DNA of 64,000 nucleotides, taken from positions 1 to 64,000 of the forward strand of contig JAHHHT010000028.1 of the NCBI GenBank assembly GCA_019359235.1, read 5' to 3'. A program made the translations under genes and the position numbers. A model generated the notes under the pieces. The model was not told the origin of the DNA and did not search any database. It worked only from the letters and a program-made list of their open reading frames with translations. Every line of letters begins with the position of its first letter. Within the stretch, counting starts at the first letter, position 1. Shown here one piece after another: positions 10,771 through 51,102 of this stretch. This DNA is from Oscillatoria princeps RMCB-10 (GTDB lineage: Bacteria > Cyanobacteriota > Cyanobacteriia > Cyanobacteriales > Oscillatoriaceae).

Positions 10771-10810
10771 ATCGCATTGGGACGGTCTTCAATTATCACT
10801 TCCCTCCTCA

Positions 10811-10884
10811 CCCCTAACCCCTAACCCCTAACCCCTAACCCCTAACCCCTAACCCCTAACCCCTAACCCCTAACCCCTAACCCC
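10811..10884 (+). repeat. CCCCTAA heptanucleotide array
   Basis: About ten and a half uninterrupted copies of CCCCTAA. It resembles the short tandemly repeated repetitive heptamers known in filamentous cyanobacteria and, superficially, telomeric repeats. The G-rich strand could form G-quadruplexes. Confidence 0.95.
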
Positions 10885-10970
10885 TTAAGGGCATTGCGCA
10901 TCATCGCATTGGGCATCCTCTGTCCGGAGCGCAATTGCGCTTAACTTTTAGGGTATAATATTATACTATA

Positions 10971-13151: not shown

Positions 13152-13775
13152 ATGATTGCTCAAAACCATCAGCTTCACAGGGGATTCGGGTTGCTAGCTG
13201 TCGCAATGGGGATGTCTGTTCCCATGATTGCCTTTAGCGCCCAGAAGTCTTTAGCCATACCTCTGCAACCCCTCCTCGACCGCATGGGGCGTCGTGCTGT
13301 GGAGGGCTTTTTCGGGATTGGATATGACACTCAAGGATTGCCGGTGAATCCCACACTCACAAACACCGAAGAGCAAGCCGGTTCTGGAGACGCATATCCC
13401 GCCTCCCCCGCCGCACCGGCATATCCGGGCTATTCCCCACCGGCATATTCCCCACCGGCATATCCGGGCTATTCCCCACCGGCATATCCCAACTATCCCC
13501 CACCGGCATATTCCCCACCGGCATATCCCAACTATCCCCCACCGGCATATCCAAACTATCCCCCACCGGCATATCCAAACTATCCCCCACCGGCATATTC
13601 CCCACCGGCATATCCCAACTATCCCGCACCGGCATATCCCGCCGCACCGGCATATCCCAACTATCCCGCACCGGCATATCCCGCCGCACCGGCATATCCC
13701 CTTCCCTATCCACTCCCCTATCCCAGTTATCCACCCCCAAGAGCAAATCCGCCGGTAATCATCAACAACTTTTAA
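13152..13775 (+). CDS. Exported Pro/Tyr-rich repeat protein
   Basis: About 207 residues from ATG 13152. An upstream in-frame ATG at 13068 lies inside a MITE-like element and is unlikely to be the start. A signal-peptide-like N-terminus (LLAVAMGMSVPMIAFS, then AQKSLA) precedes PLLDRMGRRAVEGFFGIGYD, and residues 85-200 are about 18 copies of PAYP/PPAYS/PNYP units. The last residues are PPVIINNF. Such sequences are intrinsically disordered and typical of cell-surface or sheath proteins. No enzyme motif is present. The DNA repeats (CACCGGCATATCC) contain the locally abundant ACCGGCA motif. Confidence 0.75.
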   Translation: MIAQNHQLHRGFGLLAVAMGMSVPMIAFSAQKSLAIPLQPLLDRMGRRAVEGFFGIGYDTQGLPVNPTLTNTEEQAGSGDAYPASPAAPAYPGYSPPAYSPPAYPGYSPPAYPNYPPPAYSPPAYPNYPPPAYPNYPPPAYPNYPPPAYSPPAYPNYPAPAYPAAPAYPNYPAPAYPAAPAYPLPYPLPYPSYPPPRANPPVIINNF

Positions 13776-33351: not shown

Positions 33352-33390
33352 TTGGGGCGGGTTTGGCTAACAAATCTGACATCAGATACA

Positions 33391-33930
33391 AGAAAACGGG
33401 TTTCTTTTGGCAAACAGCGGGAAAACTCAGCTTTTGTCGAGAAGAAACCCGGTTTCTGACTCCCTCGCGGGCTGAGATACAAGAAACCGGGTTTCTTTTG
33501 GCAAACAGCGGGAAAACTCAGCTAGAGTCGAGAAGAAACCCGGTTTCTGACTCCCTCGCGGGCTGAGATACAAGAAACCGGGGTTCTTTTGGCAAACAGC
33601 GGGAAAACTCAGCTATTGTCGAGAAGAAACCCGGTTTCTGACTCCCTCGCGGGCTGAGATACAAGAAACCGGGGTTCTTTTGGCAAACAGCGGGAAAACT
33701 CAGCTATTGTCGAGAAGAAACCCGGTTTCTGACTCCCTCGCGGGCTGAGATACAAGAAACCGGGGTTCTTTTGGCAAACAGCGGGAAAACTCAGCTATTG
33801 TCGAGAAGAAACCCGGTTTCTGACTCCCTCGCGGGCTGAGATACAAGAAACCGGGGTTCTTTTGGCAAACAGCGGGAAAACTCAGCTATTGTCGAGAAGA
33901 AACCCGGTTTCTGGTTGGTTTCTGACTCCA
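33391..33930 (+). repeat. 91-bp tandem repeat, six units
   Basis: Units start at 33391, 33482, 33573, 33664, 33755 and 33846 (exact 91-base period). Each has AGAAACCGGGTTTCTTTTGG, a conserved middle GCAAACAGCGGGAAAACTCA and AGAAACCCGGTTTCTGACTC. The two AGAAACCSGGTTTCT motifs are each palindromic and complementary to each other. Because the middle is also conserved, this is not a CRISPR array. Confidence 0.95.
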
Positions 33931-36815: not shown

Positions 36816-36990
36816 ACAAGAAACCGGGTTTCTTCTGGTGGGGAAGCGGGAAGAACTCAACCCCAGTCGAGAATAAACCCGGTTTCTAGCCCCCACGAAG
36901 GCGTTGCCAAAAGAAACCGGGTTTCTTCTGGTGGGGAAGCAGAAATAACTCAACCCCAGTCGAGAAGAAACCCGGTTTCTGACCCCCACG
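36816..36990 (+). repeat. Two tandem units of the 91-bp repeat family
   Basis: Units begin at about 36819 and 36911. Both carry AAGAAACCGGGTTTCTTCTG, CAACCCCAGTCGAGAA and AAACCCGGTTTCT, so this pair belongs to the 35285 subtype. Confidence 0.85.
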
Positions 36991-36999
36991 AAGCGACAC

Positions 37000-47820: not shown

Positions 47821-48261
47821 CTACTTGCATATTGTTTGTTGGGATGACCACCAAGAGTCGTTGGAAACGCAATCCACAGGGACTACCAACTTACTATCAA
47901 GAGCCACGCGAACTGAAATGAAAATATCAGTTGTTGACTTATTATTGAAAGGGTTTATTACTTCTAACCAATCAACGCCCTGCACCCCATACTTCACAAT
48001 CAAAACATTTTCTGAATCTGTCTTTTGAAACTTATAACCGTATGATCCTACATAAGTGGGGTTTTGAGCTTTAATAAGTTGTTTCACTTCGGACTCAAAG
48101 CTAGGATATTTACTCAAAATGATCCTCTTTGCTAAATTTTCCTTCTCTTGGGGAACGCCATCCAAAAGATTTGTACAATTAGTAATCAACCCCAAAGCAG
48201 GAATGGACAAGACAATTACTATTGTTAGCAAATTTCTTAGCGAATTGATAATTTTATGCAT
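47821..48261 (-). CDS. Small membrane-anchored or exported protein in AT-rich DNA
   Basis: 146 residues from ATG 48261, with GGAGA 7 bases upstream. A hydrophobic segment (LLTIVIVLSIPALGLITN) with a Cys right after it could be a signal anchor or an atypical lipoprotein signal. The remainder (SKYPSFESEVKQLIKAQNPT; SENVLIVKYGVQGVDWLEVI; IFISVRVALDSKLVVPVDCV) is a small alpha/beta domain, not recognised. Base composition is clearly AT-richer than its neighbours, a sign of horizontal gain. Confidence 0.65.
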   Translation of the reverse strand: MHKIINSLRNLLTIVIVLSIPALGLITNCTNLLDGVPQEKENLAKRIILSKYPSFESEVKQLIKAQNPTYVGSYGYKFQKTDSENVLIVKYGVQGVDWLEVINPFNNKSTTDIFISVRVALDSKLVVPVDCVSNDSWWSSQQTICK

Positions 48262-48457
48262 ATGATTCTCTCCTATACTACCTAATCTTAAGTCATTAGC
48301 TACCAACGAGGTTGTTCGCCATCCTTATACGGTTTAAGCAAGCCCACACCTCGATTGACTTCTGAAGCAAGAATATCACAGCTACAGCTGTCAATGTCTA
48401 GGGGATGTGCGGTCTGAAAAATACGGAGTTTTGTACGACCGGCCATGTACGGCCAAA

Positions 48458-48515
48458 TGTACGAAATGTACGAAATGTACGAAATGTACAAAATGTACGA
48501 CTAATCAGCTATAAT
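48458..48515 (+). promoter_or_regulatory. TGTACGAAA iteron array and TATAAT box upstream of the NB-ARC gene
   Basis: Five tandem copies of TGTACGAAA begin at 48458, 48467, 48476, 48485 and 48494 (period 9, the fourth TGTACAAAA), with looser TGTACG copies at 48432 and 48446. The TATAAT at 48510-48515 follows the last unit, so the array covers the -35 region; the ATG is at 48548. The arrangement is that of a repressor/activator operator array. Confidence 0.75.
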
Positions 48516-48547
48516 AGACGCGGCGAACTCGCTCCCATTCCTTACCT

Positions 48548-49933
48548 ATGGACATTGACGAAGTGTTACAACTGGCTGATGACCTAGTTTTTGCGAAGAC
48601 CGGCTCCCACCTCGACTACCTGCAACAAGCTATCCTCAAGGGAACGTTACAAGATAAAACTTACTCGGACATTTCCGAAGAAGTACATTTAAGTAAAAGT
48701 CATGTCAGGAACGTTGGCTCAACCCTCTGGAAACTCCTGTCAGAAGAATTGGGACAAGATATTAGTAAATCAAATTTATGGCCAGTATTAAAGAGCGCTA
48801 GGTTCTCCAAGAATAAAAATAATATTTCCTTCGTGGGAGAAACAGTTACAGTTAATGAAAGCCTTGCAGTGAATAATCTTAATATTTGTCCGGCAACTGC
48901 AAGTTCGCCAGCAGCGCCCCAAAACCCAACTACAAACTTTGGGCTAAAGCCCAACTACAAACTAGACTTAGGCGACGCACCGGCACCCGCTATCTTCTAC
49001 AACCGCACCGACGAACTCACCACCCTCAAACAGTGGATTTTAGAGGAAAACACCGGCCTCATCACTCTCCTTGGACTGACCGGCACCGGCAAAACCGCAC
49101 TCGCCGTCCAGCTCGTCCAACAAATTCAAGCTCAATTTGACTTTATCATCTGGCGAAGCCTTGCAACCGCTCCATCCCTGCCAACCCTGCAAACAAACTT
49201 AATTGAACTCCTCAGCTGCGAACAGCAAACAAAATTCCCCTCCCTCACCGACTATTTGCGCTCCTATCGCTGCTTGCTGATCTTCGACGACCTGCAAACG
49301 ATTTTCAGCCCCTGCCAATTAGCAGGAGAGTGTCAACCTGGCTATGAAAATTACGGCACACTCTTCAAAAAAGTCGCAGAAACATCTCACAACAGTTGCT
49401 TGCTTTTACTCACCTGGGAAAAACCCAGAGAAATTGCCCTCTTAGAAGGGAGCAACCGGCCCGCTCGCACCTTACAGCTCAAAGGTTTAGGCGAGCAAGC
49501 GCGGCAACTCTTACGAGAAAAACGATTAGCCCCCGAAGAAAAATGGTCAGAACTGATTGAACTTTACCAGGGCAACCCCCTGTGGTTAAATATTGTTGCC
49601 GCCACGATCCAAGAGTTATTCTCTGGAAGCGTCTCAGACTTCTTATCTTATGACACCCTACTTTTAGGCGACTTAGAAGCCCTATTGCACCCGCATTTCC
49701 ACCGCTTGTCCGAGTCAGAAAAACAAGTGATGTCATGGGTGGCCAATCAAATGTCAGCGGTCGAGCTATCAAAAATGCCGGCCCATTTGCAACTGACCCC
49801 ACCCGAATTTTTGAAAGTCATGCAATCTTTGAGCCGGCGCTGCTTGCTTGAAAGATTGAAAGACGGCGACAGACAGCTTTTCACGCTTCAACCTGCGATC
49901 AGGGAGTATGTCAAAAATCATCTCCCAAATTGA
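48548..49933 (+). CDS. STAND NTPase: vMAP-type HTH plus NB-ARC, no sensor repeats
   Basis: 461 residues. Residues 1-75 (DEVLQLADDLVFAKTGSHLD; YSDISEEVHLSKSHVRNVGS; LWKLLSEELGQDISKSN) match the N-terminal HTH of vWA-MoxR-associated (vMAP) conflict proteins. NB-ARC follows: Walker A GLTGTGKTA at 176-184, Walker B CLLIFDDLQ at 242-250, GNPLWLNIVA (GxPL motif) and a winged-helix domain ending REYVKNHLPN. Relatives usually continue into WD40 or TPR sensors; here a stop ends the protein, so it may act with a separate partner. Residues 125-139 are encoded by an inserted REP element. Likely a signalling or defence switch. Confidence 0.85.
   Translation: MDIDEVLQLADDLVFAKTGSHLDYLQQAILKGTLQDKTYSDISEEVHLSKSHVRNVGSTLWKLLSEELGQDISKSNLWPVLKSARFSKNKNNISFVGETVTVNESLAVNNLNICPATASSPAAPQNPTTNFGLKPNYKLDLGDAPAPAIFYNRTDELTTLKQWILEENTGLITLLGLTGTGKTALAVQLVQQIQAQFDFIIWRSLATAPSLPTLQTNLIELLSCEQQTKFPSLTDYLRSYRCLLIFDDLQTIFSPCQLAGECQPGYENYGTLFKKVAETSHNSCLLLLTWEKPREIALLEGSNRPARTLQLKGLGEQARQLLREKRLAPEEKWSELIELYQGNPLWLNIVAATIQELFSGSVSDFLSYDTLLLGDLEALLHPHFHRLSESEKQVMSWVANQMSAVELSKMPAHLQLTPPEFLKVMQSLSRRCLLERLKDGDRQLFTLQPAIREYVKNHLPN
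48925..48962 (+). repeat. REP element inside the NB-ARC coding sequence
   Basis: ACCCAACTACAAACTTTGGG followed by CTAAAGCCCAACTACAAAC matches 32714-32770. It is translated in frame as NPTTNFGLKPNYKL in the linker between HTH and NB-ARC. Confidence 0.8.
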
Positions 49934-50040: not shown

Positions 50041-51102
50041 TTAGCCCTTGATAGCGGGAGCTTCAACAGAAGCCAAGTCGAGCGGGAAGTTGTGAGCGTT
50101 GCGCTCGTGCATTACTTCCATACCCAGGTTGGCGCGGTTGATCACATCAGCCCAAGTATTGATAACGCGACCTTGGCTGTCAATCACGGACTGGTTGAAG
50201 TTGAAACCGTTCAGGTTGAAGGCCATCGTGGAGATCCCCAGAGCGGTGAACCAGATGCCAATCACCGGCCAAGCACCCAAGAAGAAGTGCAAGGAACGGC
50301 TGTTGTTGAAAGAAGCGTATTGGAAGATCAGGCGACCGAAGTAGCCGTGAGCTGCAACGATGTTGTAGGTTTCTTCTTCTTGACCGAACTTGTAACCGTA
50401 GTTTTGAGATTCGGTTTCGGTGGTTTCACGCACCAAGGAAGAAGTTACCAGAGAACCGTGCATCGCGGAGAACAGAGAACCGCCAAACACACCGGCAACA
50501 CCGAGCATGTGGAAGGGGTGCATCAGGATATTGTGCTCAGCTTGGAACACCAACATGAAGTTGAAGGTTCCGCTGATCCCCAGAGGCATACCGTCGGAGA
50601 AAGAACCTTGACCGATCGGGTAGATCAGGAAAACTGCCGTTGCAGCCGCCACGGGGGCAGAGTAAGCAACGCAGATCCAAGGACGCATACCCAAGCGGTA
50701 GGACAGTTCCCACTCACGACCCATGTAGCAGAAGACGCCAATCAGGAAGTGGAAAATCACCAGCTGGTACGGGCCACCATTGTACAGCCACTCATCCAAG
50801 CTGGCTGCTTCCCAAATCGGGTAGAAGTGCAGACCGATAGCGTTAGAGGAGGGGACAACAGCACCGCTGATGATGTTGTTGCCGTAGAGGAGAGAGCCAG
50901 CGACCGGCTCGCGGATGCCGTCGATGTCCACTGGGGGAGCGGCGACAAAGGCGATGATGTAGCAGATGGTGGCGGTGAGCAGGGTGGGGATCATCAGGAC
51001 ACCGAACCAGCCGACATAAATGCGGTTTTCGGTGCTGGTGACCCAGCTGCAGAACCGTTCCCAGACGTTGGCGCTTTCACGGCGCTGTAAGGTGGTGGTC
51101 AT
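50041..51102 (-). CDS. psbA: Photosystem II D1 protein, E130 form with short C-terminal extension
   Basis: 353 residues, complete. It carries Tyr161 (YZ), Asp170 (first Mn ligand), His190, His198 and the DE loop [20 protein letters not shown]. Residue 130 is Glu ([10 protein letters not shown]), the state typical of high-light D1 forms (D1:2-type), whereas standard low-light forms have Gln. The pre-sequence after Ala344 is only nine residues (SVEAPAIKG), the length found in chloroplasts and Prochlorothrix, rather than the 16 of most cyanobacteria. D1 binds P680, pheophytin, QB and the Mn4CaO5 cluster. It has its own promoter and terminator. Confidence 0.97.

Follow-up and report, generated by a model that had tools for sequence, protein, structure and literature searches.

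Co-variation between a 9-bp promoter array and the putative recognition helix of a cyanobacterial HTH–NB-ARC regulator

MalT represents the closest system found in its working to the regulator described here. In the available text of two reports, MalT multimerises and thereby binds cooperatively to several promoter boxes (PMC4381067, PMC10427625). Both proteins combine a STAND NTPase with a DNA-binding domain. However, MalT holds its DNA-binding domain in the C-terminus, carries a TPR-type sensor, and activates other genes, whereas in the protein under study the helix-turn-helix (HTH) is N-terminal, a sensor was not found, and the array lies in its own promoter; on domain order and sensor, the protein thus falls outside the MalT type.

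Two further groups of cyanobacterial proteins share parts of this architecture. The accessible text of a domain-architecture survey of cyanobacterial sigma-70 homologs counts r4_2*NB-ARC*TPR_MalT proteins as SigR, lists NB-ARC among the domains accessory to region-4-type proteins, and makes no mention of promoter arrays (PMC11119718). The likeness to the SigR type seen in that text consists of a sigma-region-4-like domain together with NB-ARC in cyanobacteria; unlike it, our protein shows no TPR and scores under the Pfam threshold for region 4. STAND NTPases of the NB-ARC/AP-ATPase clade usually, although not universally, carry sensor repeats (TPR, WD40, LRR) at the C-terminus. The VMAP/STAND conflict systems of multicellular bacteria, which include NTP-dependent switches in cyanobacteria, are defined, in the text available, by MoxR-vWA-VMAP gene trios and their effectors, and the word "promoter" is absent from that text (PMC7159879). 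Arrays such as those reported below are not described in the accessible portions of PMC7159879, PMC8195603, and PMC10907252, and a search of mainly openly available literature, covering titles, abstract openings, and accessible passages, found no earlier description of them. STAND regulators themselves are known, and the present family is a variant of STAND transcription regulators that has apparently not been described before.

Regulators of the LacI and MerR families are dimers that bind palindromic sites. In the available text of PMC5045206, their recognition codes consist of correlated residue–base pairs with a cluster in the recognition helix, where the classic reading positions are residues 1, 2, and 6. 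With the helix of our protein counted from K50, positions 2 and 6 fall on residues 51 and 55. Unlike these families, the operators described here are one-way arrays in the promoter of the paralog itself, with a dozen or more paralogs in a single genome. The same genomes also contain the STRR heptamers, the short tandemly repeated repetitive DNA of cyanobacteria, from which the family unit differs in its length of 9 or 10 bp, its single position and orientation, and a core that follows the protein.

The gene of this protein lies in the window, as we call the whole 64,000-nucleotide stretch analysed from Oscillatoria princeps RMCB-10 (features in Table 1). Its product scores 39.6 bits for NB-ARC (Pfam cutoff 23.5) and 30.8 bits for NACHT (cutoff 26.7), and bears a Walker A motif, GLTGTGKT, at residues 176–183 and a Walker B motif, LLIFDD, at residues 243–248. 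Among full-length relatives, Walker A is conserved in 184 of 185 and the DD of Walker B in 172 of 185, and a PDB search with a profile built from eight relatives hits PH0952 and plant NLRs. None of the TPR, WD40, or LRR sensor repeats appears in the Pfam list up to an E-value of 1, and the protein ends at residue 461, in agreement with a preliminary description of this DNA as encoding a STAND NTPase without sensor repeats. That description also named a vMAP-type HTH, for which neither Pfam nor NCBIfam returned a model (these libraries may hold none). The N-terminus matches Pfam families only below threshold, sigma-70 region 4 and HTH_23 among them; all ten N-termini tested missed the gathering score of Sigma70_r4 and r4_2, the best reaching 18.9 bits against 24.1. 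A C-terminal LuxR-type HTH was likewise below threshold (a short GerE match at residues 386–406, 14.7 against 23.5 bits).

Table 1. Coordinates of the regulator gene, its promoter array, and a second array locus.
Feature	Position	Strand	Basis or remark
Distal unit TGTACGACC	48432..48440	+	TGTAC motif in sequence
Distal unit TGTACGGCC	48446..48454	+	TGTAC motif in sequence
Core array, five units, 9-bp spacing exact	48458..48502	+	Sequence, TRF
Degenerate in-register unit AATCAGCTA	48503..48511	+	Last 2 bases are the first 2 of the -10
-10 hexamer TATAAT	48510..48515	+	Sequence and family pattern
Gene for 461-aa HTH–NB-ARC regulator	48548..49933	+	ORF, Pfam
N-terminal HTH region, residues 1–70	48548..48757	+	Sub-threshold matches only
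Putative recognition helix, residues 49–60 (SKSHVRNVGSTL)	48692..48727	+	Co-variation with array core
Residue 51 codon	48698-48700	+	Tracks base N3
Residue 55 codon	48710-48712	+	Tracks base N4
NB-ARC match, residues 155–249	49010..49294	+	Pfam
Trypsin-TPR gene	L198:3475-5016	-	Trypsin_2 and TPR domains
GTACGAAATGTCAGAAATGTACG array upstream of trypsin-TPR gene	L198:5090-5112		Counterpart in L181

The promoter contains seven TGTAC starts, at 48432, 48446, 48458, 48467, 48476, 48485, and 48494. The count of five 9-bp repeats and two looser ones given in the preliminary description is right, yet only three of the five are exact: the units at 48458, 48467, and 48476 read TGTACGAAA, while those at 48485 (TGTACAAAA) and 48494 (TGTACGACT) carry one and two mismatches. 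TRF reports the array at 48455–48500 with period 9, 5.1 copies, and 94% matches. The TATAAT noted beside the repeats is also where it was described, ahead of the gene, with 32 bases between it and the ATG (48548). A good -35 element is absent at the usual distance from it, the hexamer TACAAA at 48487–48492 scoring 3 of 6. Taken singly, 9-mers that differ from TGTACGAAA by at most one base show no enrichment in the window (6 against 8.35 expected), but four of these matches cluster within 45 bp on the + strand, where 200 first-order Markov simulations of the window reached a clustering count of 1 at most; the signal is the clustering of units and not the abundance of single 9-mers. Across the 8.49-Mb genome (60 contigs), the pattern TGTACNNNNTGTACNNNNTGTAC is confined to this array, with three overlapping matches, and its reversed control has none. 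Orthologous promoters, named beforehand as the place to look, carry TGTACGA units in L034/L063 (protein 93% identical) and in L035 (64% identical).

Relatives of this protein are widespread. Its own genome holds 33 matches, the protein itself among them, of which 14 are full-length and start at residue 1. With this genome counted each time, matches at E ≤0.001 occur in 76 of the 80 genomes searched as relatives, in 268 of 291 at the order level (query L010), and in 140 of 194 at the class level, where many are not of the short type. Named records place relatives in Oscillatoria (Prado101, PCC 10802), Phormidium, Planktothrix, and their kin. From 129 loci, four duplicates were removed, and 111 of the resulting 125 were kept for their typical HTH, the other 14 having another N-terminus, a divergent HTH, or a divergent start. 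The class-level loci (L134–L159) were left out of the 171-promoter, held-out-neighbour, geometry, and tree counts. Many of these relatives lie in open frames of about 1,200 aa, and the period signal is absent from their 26 promoters (self-match at lags 9/10 of 0.287/0.289); the promoter unit is mostly missing from them, with arrays in 4 of 25 by difference of counts.

In most relatives the promoter carries an array whose units, 9 or 10 bp long and of the form W-G-T-N3-N4-G-A-W-A, run in one direction, and inspection of 54 promoters by eye found arrays in most of them, with differing cores. An EM model of this unit, with one core per promoter, called 538 sites in the 111 promoters; base frequencies at N3 and N4 were learned for this model and for the 95-promoter analysis below, and set flat for the later held-out and 171-promoter analyses. 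Self-match at lags 9/10 is 0.333/0.387 in the 111 family promoters, compared with 0.285/0.294 in 101 control promoters taken from these loci (Mann-Whitney p 1.7e-23 for the higher of the two values), 75 of the 111 lying above the 95% point of the controls, and the period signal is absent from eight NB-ARC relatives with other N-termini (0.266/0.280). Units of the exact form number 270 forward against 15 reverse in family promoters, and 0.16 forward and 0.48 reverse per control promoter. The best 7-mers frequently recur with a spacing of 9 or 10 bp and, beyond a gap, with one of about 24–26 or 34–35 bp, a recurring gap that parts distal from proximal clusters in promoters such as those of L010 and L119. 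Two in-register units were not called in 25 of 196 family promoters (class level excluded), including those of L005, from the same genome, L047, L058, and L080.

The period itself co-occurs with residue 24, the best protein column for it: with period 9 this residue is Y in 23 of 30 and H in 5 of 30, and with period 10 it is D, N, or S in 109 of 119 and H in 4 of 119. Since this comparison is uncorrected for descent, it is only a hint, and a protomer–protomer or phosphate contact by residue 24 is possible.

The core of the array co-varies with a few residues of the HTH. In the 95 promoters left after removing from the 111 the 16 without two in-register units, weighted mutual information over 446 columns peaks at residue 51 for N3 (0.78, the next column 0.52), at residue 55 for N4 (0.48), and at residue 59 for N5 (0.36). 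Residues 51 and 55 again come first for N3 and N4 with 171 promoters and 435 columns, while residue 59 drops to second place after T213 for N5 and its role as a reader of this base is accordingly weak. The three residues are spaced i, i+4, i+8, and residues 51 and 55 would presumably correspond, in a putative alignment, to E585 and Q589, with which E. coli sigma-70 reads the -35 element. Helices and cores form recognisable groups: SEGHVRDV occurs with GTCGGA, SEGHVRNV with GTCAGA, SYDHVKK with GTGGGA, SEAHVKK with GTAGGA, NESYVRD with GTTGG, and the SKSHVRNV/SESHVKNV helices, the group of the window protein, mostly with GTACGA. Exceptions include L083 (SHVRD with GTCGGA) and L132 (SHVRN with GTCCGA/GTAGGA). 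In 55 clusters at 70% identity, G51 goes with C3 in 16 of 17, D51 with G3 in 8 of 9, and S51 with A3 in 12 of 18; N55 goes with a base other than G4 in 13 of 14, and D, K, E, or R55 with G4 in 37 of 39. This family-wide co-variation of the core with the helix of its own gene strongly supports the earlier claim that the protein binds its own iterons, and it is from this co-variation that we infer the binding itself.

A one-residue rule fixed before the held-out order-level loci were fetched predicted N3 in 45 of 71 cases, against 34 of 72 for always choosing C, and N4 in 58 of 70, against 40 of 72 for always choosing G, any non-G base being scored as right for N/Q55. Under a stricter cut at 70% identity, 28 loci remained, of which 21 were class-level and 20 lacked an array; the rule was then right for N3 in 3 of 8 and for N4 in 5 of 7. 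The misses are mostly systematic—T3 accompanies S51-Y52 in 11 of 12, and C4 accompanies S51-R52-E55 in 7 of 7—and K51, for which T was predicted, was twice seen with C in held-out loci. These misses indicate that the putative helix–base code is context-dependent. A one-residue lookup code is too simple for the held-out results, and position 52 matters.

These features suggest that the gene encodes a STAND (NB-ARC) switch that binds DNA and governs the promoter of its own gene, and we consider it probable that the window protein binds its own array and autoregulates. Its N-terminal sigma-region-4/LuxR-like HTH would read one 9-bp unit, with GTACGA as the core in this gene, residue 51 (with 52) reading N3 and residue 55 reading N4, and several protomers are predicted to occupy the array in head-to-tail order, each on one unit and about one per helical turn. 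As the array enters the -10 in a fixed register, a filled array would most likely block RNA polymerase, resulting in negative autoregulation, and the nucleotide or oligomer state of NB-ARC may release or strengthen this repression. Control of DNA binding by the nucleotide state is plausible, given the conservation of both Walker motifs and the MalT precedent. The differing cores of paralogs could let many regulators of one family coexist with limited cross-talk. If so, the family would provide a large natural set of matched protein–operator pairs, many of them within single genomes, in which a recognition code and its evolution after gene duplication would be directly measurable; the code predicts that residues 51, 52, and 55 set the array bound by a protein. 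It would also tie NLR-like oligomerising switches to a DNA scaffold and might offer a toolbox of orthogonal bacterial regulators.

The sign of this regulation has to be drawn from promoter geometry. In 87 of 171 promoters the best-scoring -10 begins 7 bases past the first base of the last unit, and the distance from AATCAGCTA to the -10 of the window gene is the same; this offset is to be read with care because the W-A end of the unit resembles the T-A of the -10 and favours it. Other offsets are 16 or 17 in 27 promoters, 2 in 16, and 5 in 12. The -10 starts 34–35 nt before the ATG in 91 of 171. Within the self-binding reading, the overlap of array units with the -10 suggests repression rather than activation. 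Self-binding as an activator is nevertheless a possible alternative, if a tentative one, in which the array substitutes for an absent -35 and the oligomer brings in RNA polymerase, with positive feedback and a bistable switch as the outcome. TTGACA at 5 of 6 positions or better is found in just 8 of 171 promoters, the -10 is often fixed to the array with single-base precision, and such a fixed phase would suit activation as well; MalT offers a precedent among STAND factors, since in the text cited above its multimers occupy their boxes cooperatively and recruit polymerase. Against an activator, units reach the -10, one of them sharing its last two bases with it, and this unit partly follows the array core: its N3N4 agrees with that of the distal units at 0.323 against 0.107 when shuffled (0 of 1000 permutations, 87 promoters), although in some subfamilies it is GTGAG (15 of 87) or GTTAG (11 of 87) and not the array core. 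Furthermore, L009, L066, and L048 hold units inside the spacer of a TTGACA-17/18-(-10) promoter, an arrangement that suits occlusion.

Another alternative is that sister paralogs are the main binders of the arrays, or that the arrays belong to a broader regulon, with self-binding incidental. The paralogs L012 and L015 of the same genome have the GTACGA core in common with the window gene, and a further array, GTACGAAATGTCAGAAATGTACG, precedes a trypsin-TPR gene in G000 and G002, near the paralogs L012/L093; its distance to L012, in whose own promoter two units read TGTACGA, is about 3.5 kb from array to gene. This reading is nonetheless unlikely, as the core tracks the helix of the adjacent gene itself and most arrays stand before such genes. 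Two strict generic patterns located 18 distinct three-unit sites in six genomes, 15 of them ahead of an HTH gene (two at about 335 and 690 bp upstream of a 171–172-aa HTH protein), the other three being the trypsin-TPR promoters of G000 and G002 and a short repeat before a gene that by eye resembles dnaG. The strict patterns found no array in G061 and G070, though family genes are present, and the reversed control of the 9-bp pattern gave nine matches, all in G039. A laxer scan of the window and 20 stretches of its own genome, which together hold 14 HTH–NB-ARC genes, found nine arrays, seven before such genes, one before the trypsin-TPR gene, and one near a 172-aa HTH gene.

The GTACGAAATGTCAGAAATGTACG array is a possible second operator on an effector gene. 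A broader and doubtful extension would have a dozen or more sensorless NLR-like switches in each filamentous-cyanobacterial genome, insulated by private arrays with a readable HTH–DNA code; the DNA array would be the scaffold on which protomers assemble, one to each helical turn, the oligomer being set by the promoter in place of a sensor repeat, with some members controlling a nearby effector, such as the trypsin-TPR protease, through a second array.

The array and the HTH are adjacent in the DNA, and co-inheritance therefore accounts for part of the correlation between them. The matched test is the clearest of those directed at common descent. Among pairs with 50–60% identity in the rest of the HTH, N3N4 is shared by a fraction of 0.72 with the same key (490 pairs) and 0.08 with a different key (5933 pairs). 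Across the six bins of this identity between 0.3 and 0.9, N3N4 is common to 55–83% of same-key pairs (the 83% coming from six pairs) and to 7–10% of different-key pairs, with 26% in the top bin. Permutation within clusters reached the observed key difference in 0 of 1000 trials at each of three cuts, and a partial Mantel correlation of core with helix distance, given the NB-ARC and rest-of-HTH distances, was 0.26 (0 of 500 permutations).

Nearest-neighbour prediction of 72 held-out promoters from 99 training promoters points the same way when relatives more than 50% identical are excluded. In this strict version, accuracies for N3, N4, and all three bases were 0.53/0.70/0.35 from the helix, 0.22/0.33/0.03 from NB-ARC, and 0.21/0.53/0.14 from the rest of the HTH, with a random baseline of 0.32 for N3 and 0.40 for N4. 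Without exclusion, the rest of the HTH (0.77/0.82/0.56) equals the helix (0.73/0.76/0.55), a parity that is as descent predicts. Independent pairs were also counted on a FastTree tree of NB-ARC and the C-terminus. For N/Q55 with non-G4, 20 pairs gave 14.5 in the same and 0.0 in the opposite direction (median p 0.00012); the remaining tests gave 5.4 to 0.0 for D/N51-G3 (6 pairs, p 0.031), 5.5 to 0.0 for S51Y52-T3 (6 pairs, p 0.031), 5.1 to 0.3 for G51-C3 (11 pairs, p 0.0625), and 4.7 to 0.9 for S51-A3 (11 pairs, p 0.219). A tree of the N-terminus without the helix supports 2–6 pairs per test, where none of the five is significant and all five lean the same way. The operator core follows the putative recognition helix of its own gene, more weakly on the N-terminal tree.

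The weakest alternative, that the arrays are inert tandem repeats expanded by slippage and carried along with the HTH DNA so that the correlation reflects common descent only, could draw on the many short tandem repeats of the genome (for the window, TRF gives 79 rows at score 30), on the physical linkage of promoter and HTH, on the parity seen when close relatives are kept, and on the N-terminal tree, but is very improbable in view of the single orientation and position of the arrays, the missing period in the control promoters and NB-ARC relatives, the lead of the helix over NB-ARC and the rest of the HTH in the strict prediction of all three bases, and the matched test. STRR-type repeats or slippage were set aside as a full explanation in view of the single orientation, the position, and the matched helix test.

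In some pairs of loci (L115/L084, L297/L265, and L274/L122), NB-ARC domains more than 90% identical stand behind differing HTH keys and cores, which suggests that promoter and HTH move as one module while NB-ARC is exchanged between paralogs. The gene adjoining that of the window protein, at 50041–51102 on the - strand, we take from its sequence to be psbA. The preliminary description also proposed a separate partner that would sense the trigger, a hypothetical component for which the divergent gene on the other side (47821–48306) was considered and rejected: among the loci collected, its matches at E ≤1e-4 were overlapping copies of the same locus only, with none on the ortholog contig L063. 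Other tandem repeats of the window reported by TRF include CCTAACC heptamers in 11.4 copies at 10806–10885, CCACCGGCATAT-type repeats at 13414–13701, and two AAGAAACC-rich repeats of similar letters, with a 91-bp unit in 5.8 copies at 33384–33913 and a 93-bp unit in 1.9 copies at 36818–36993.
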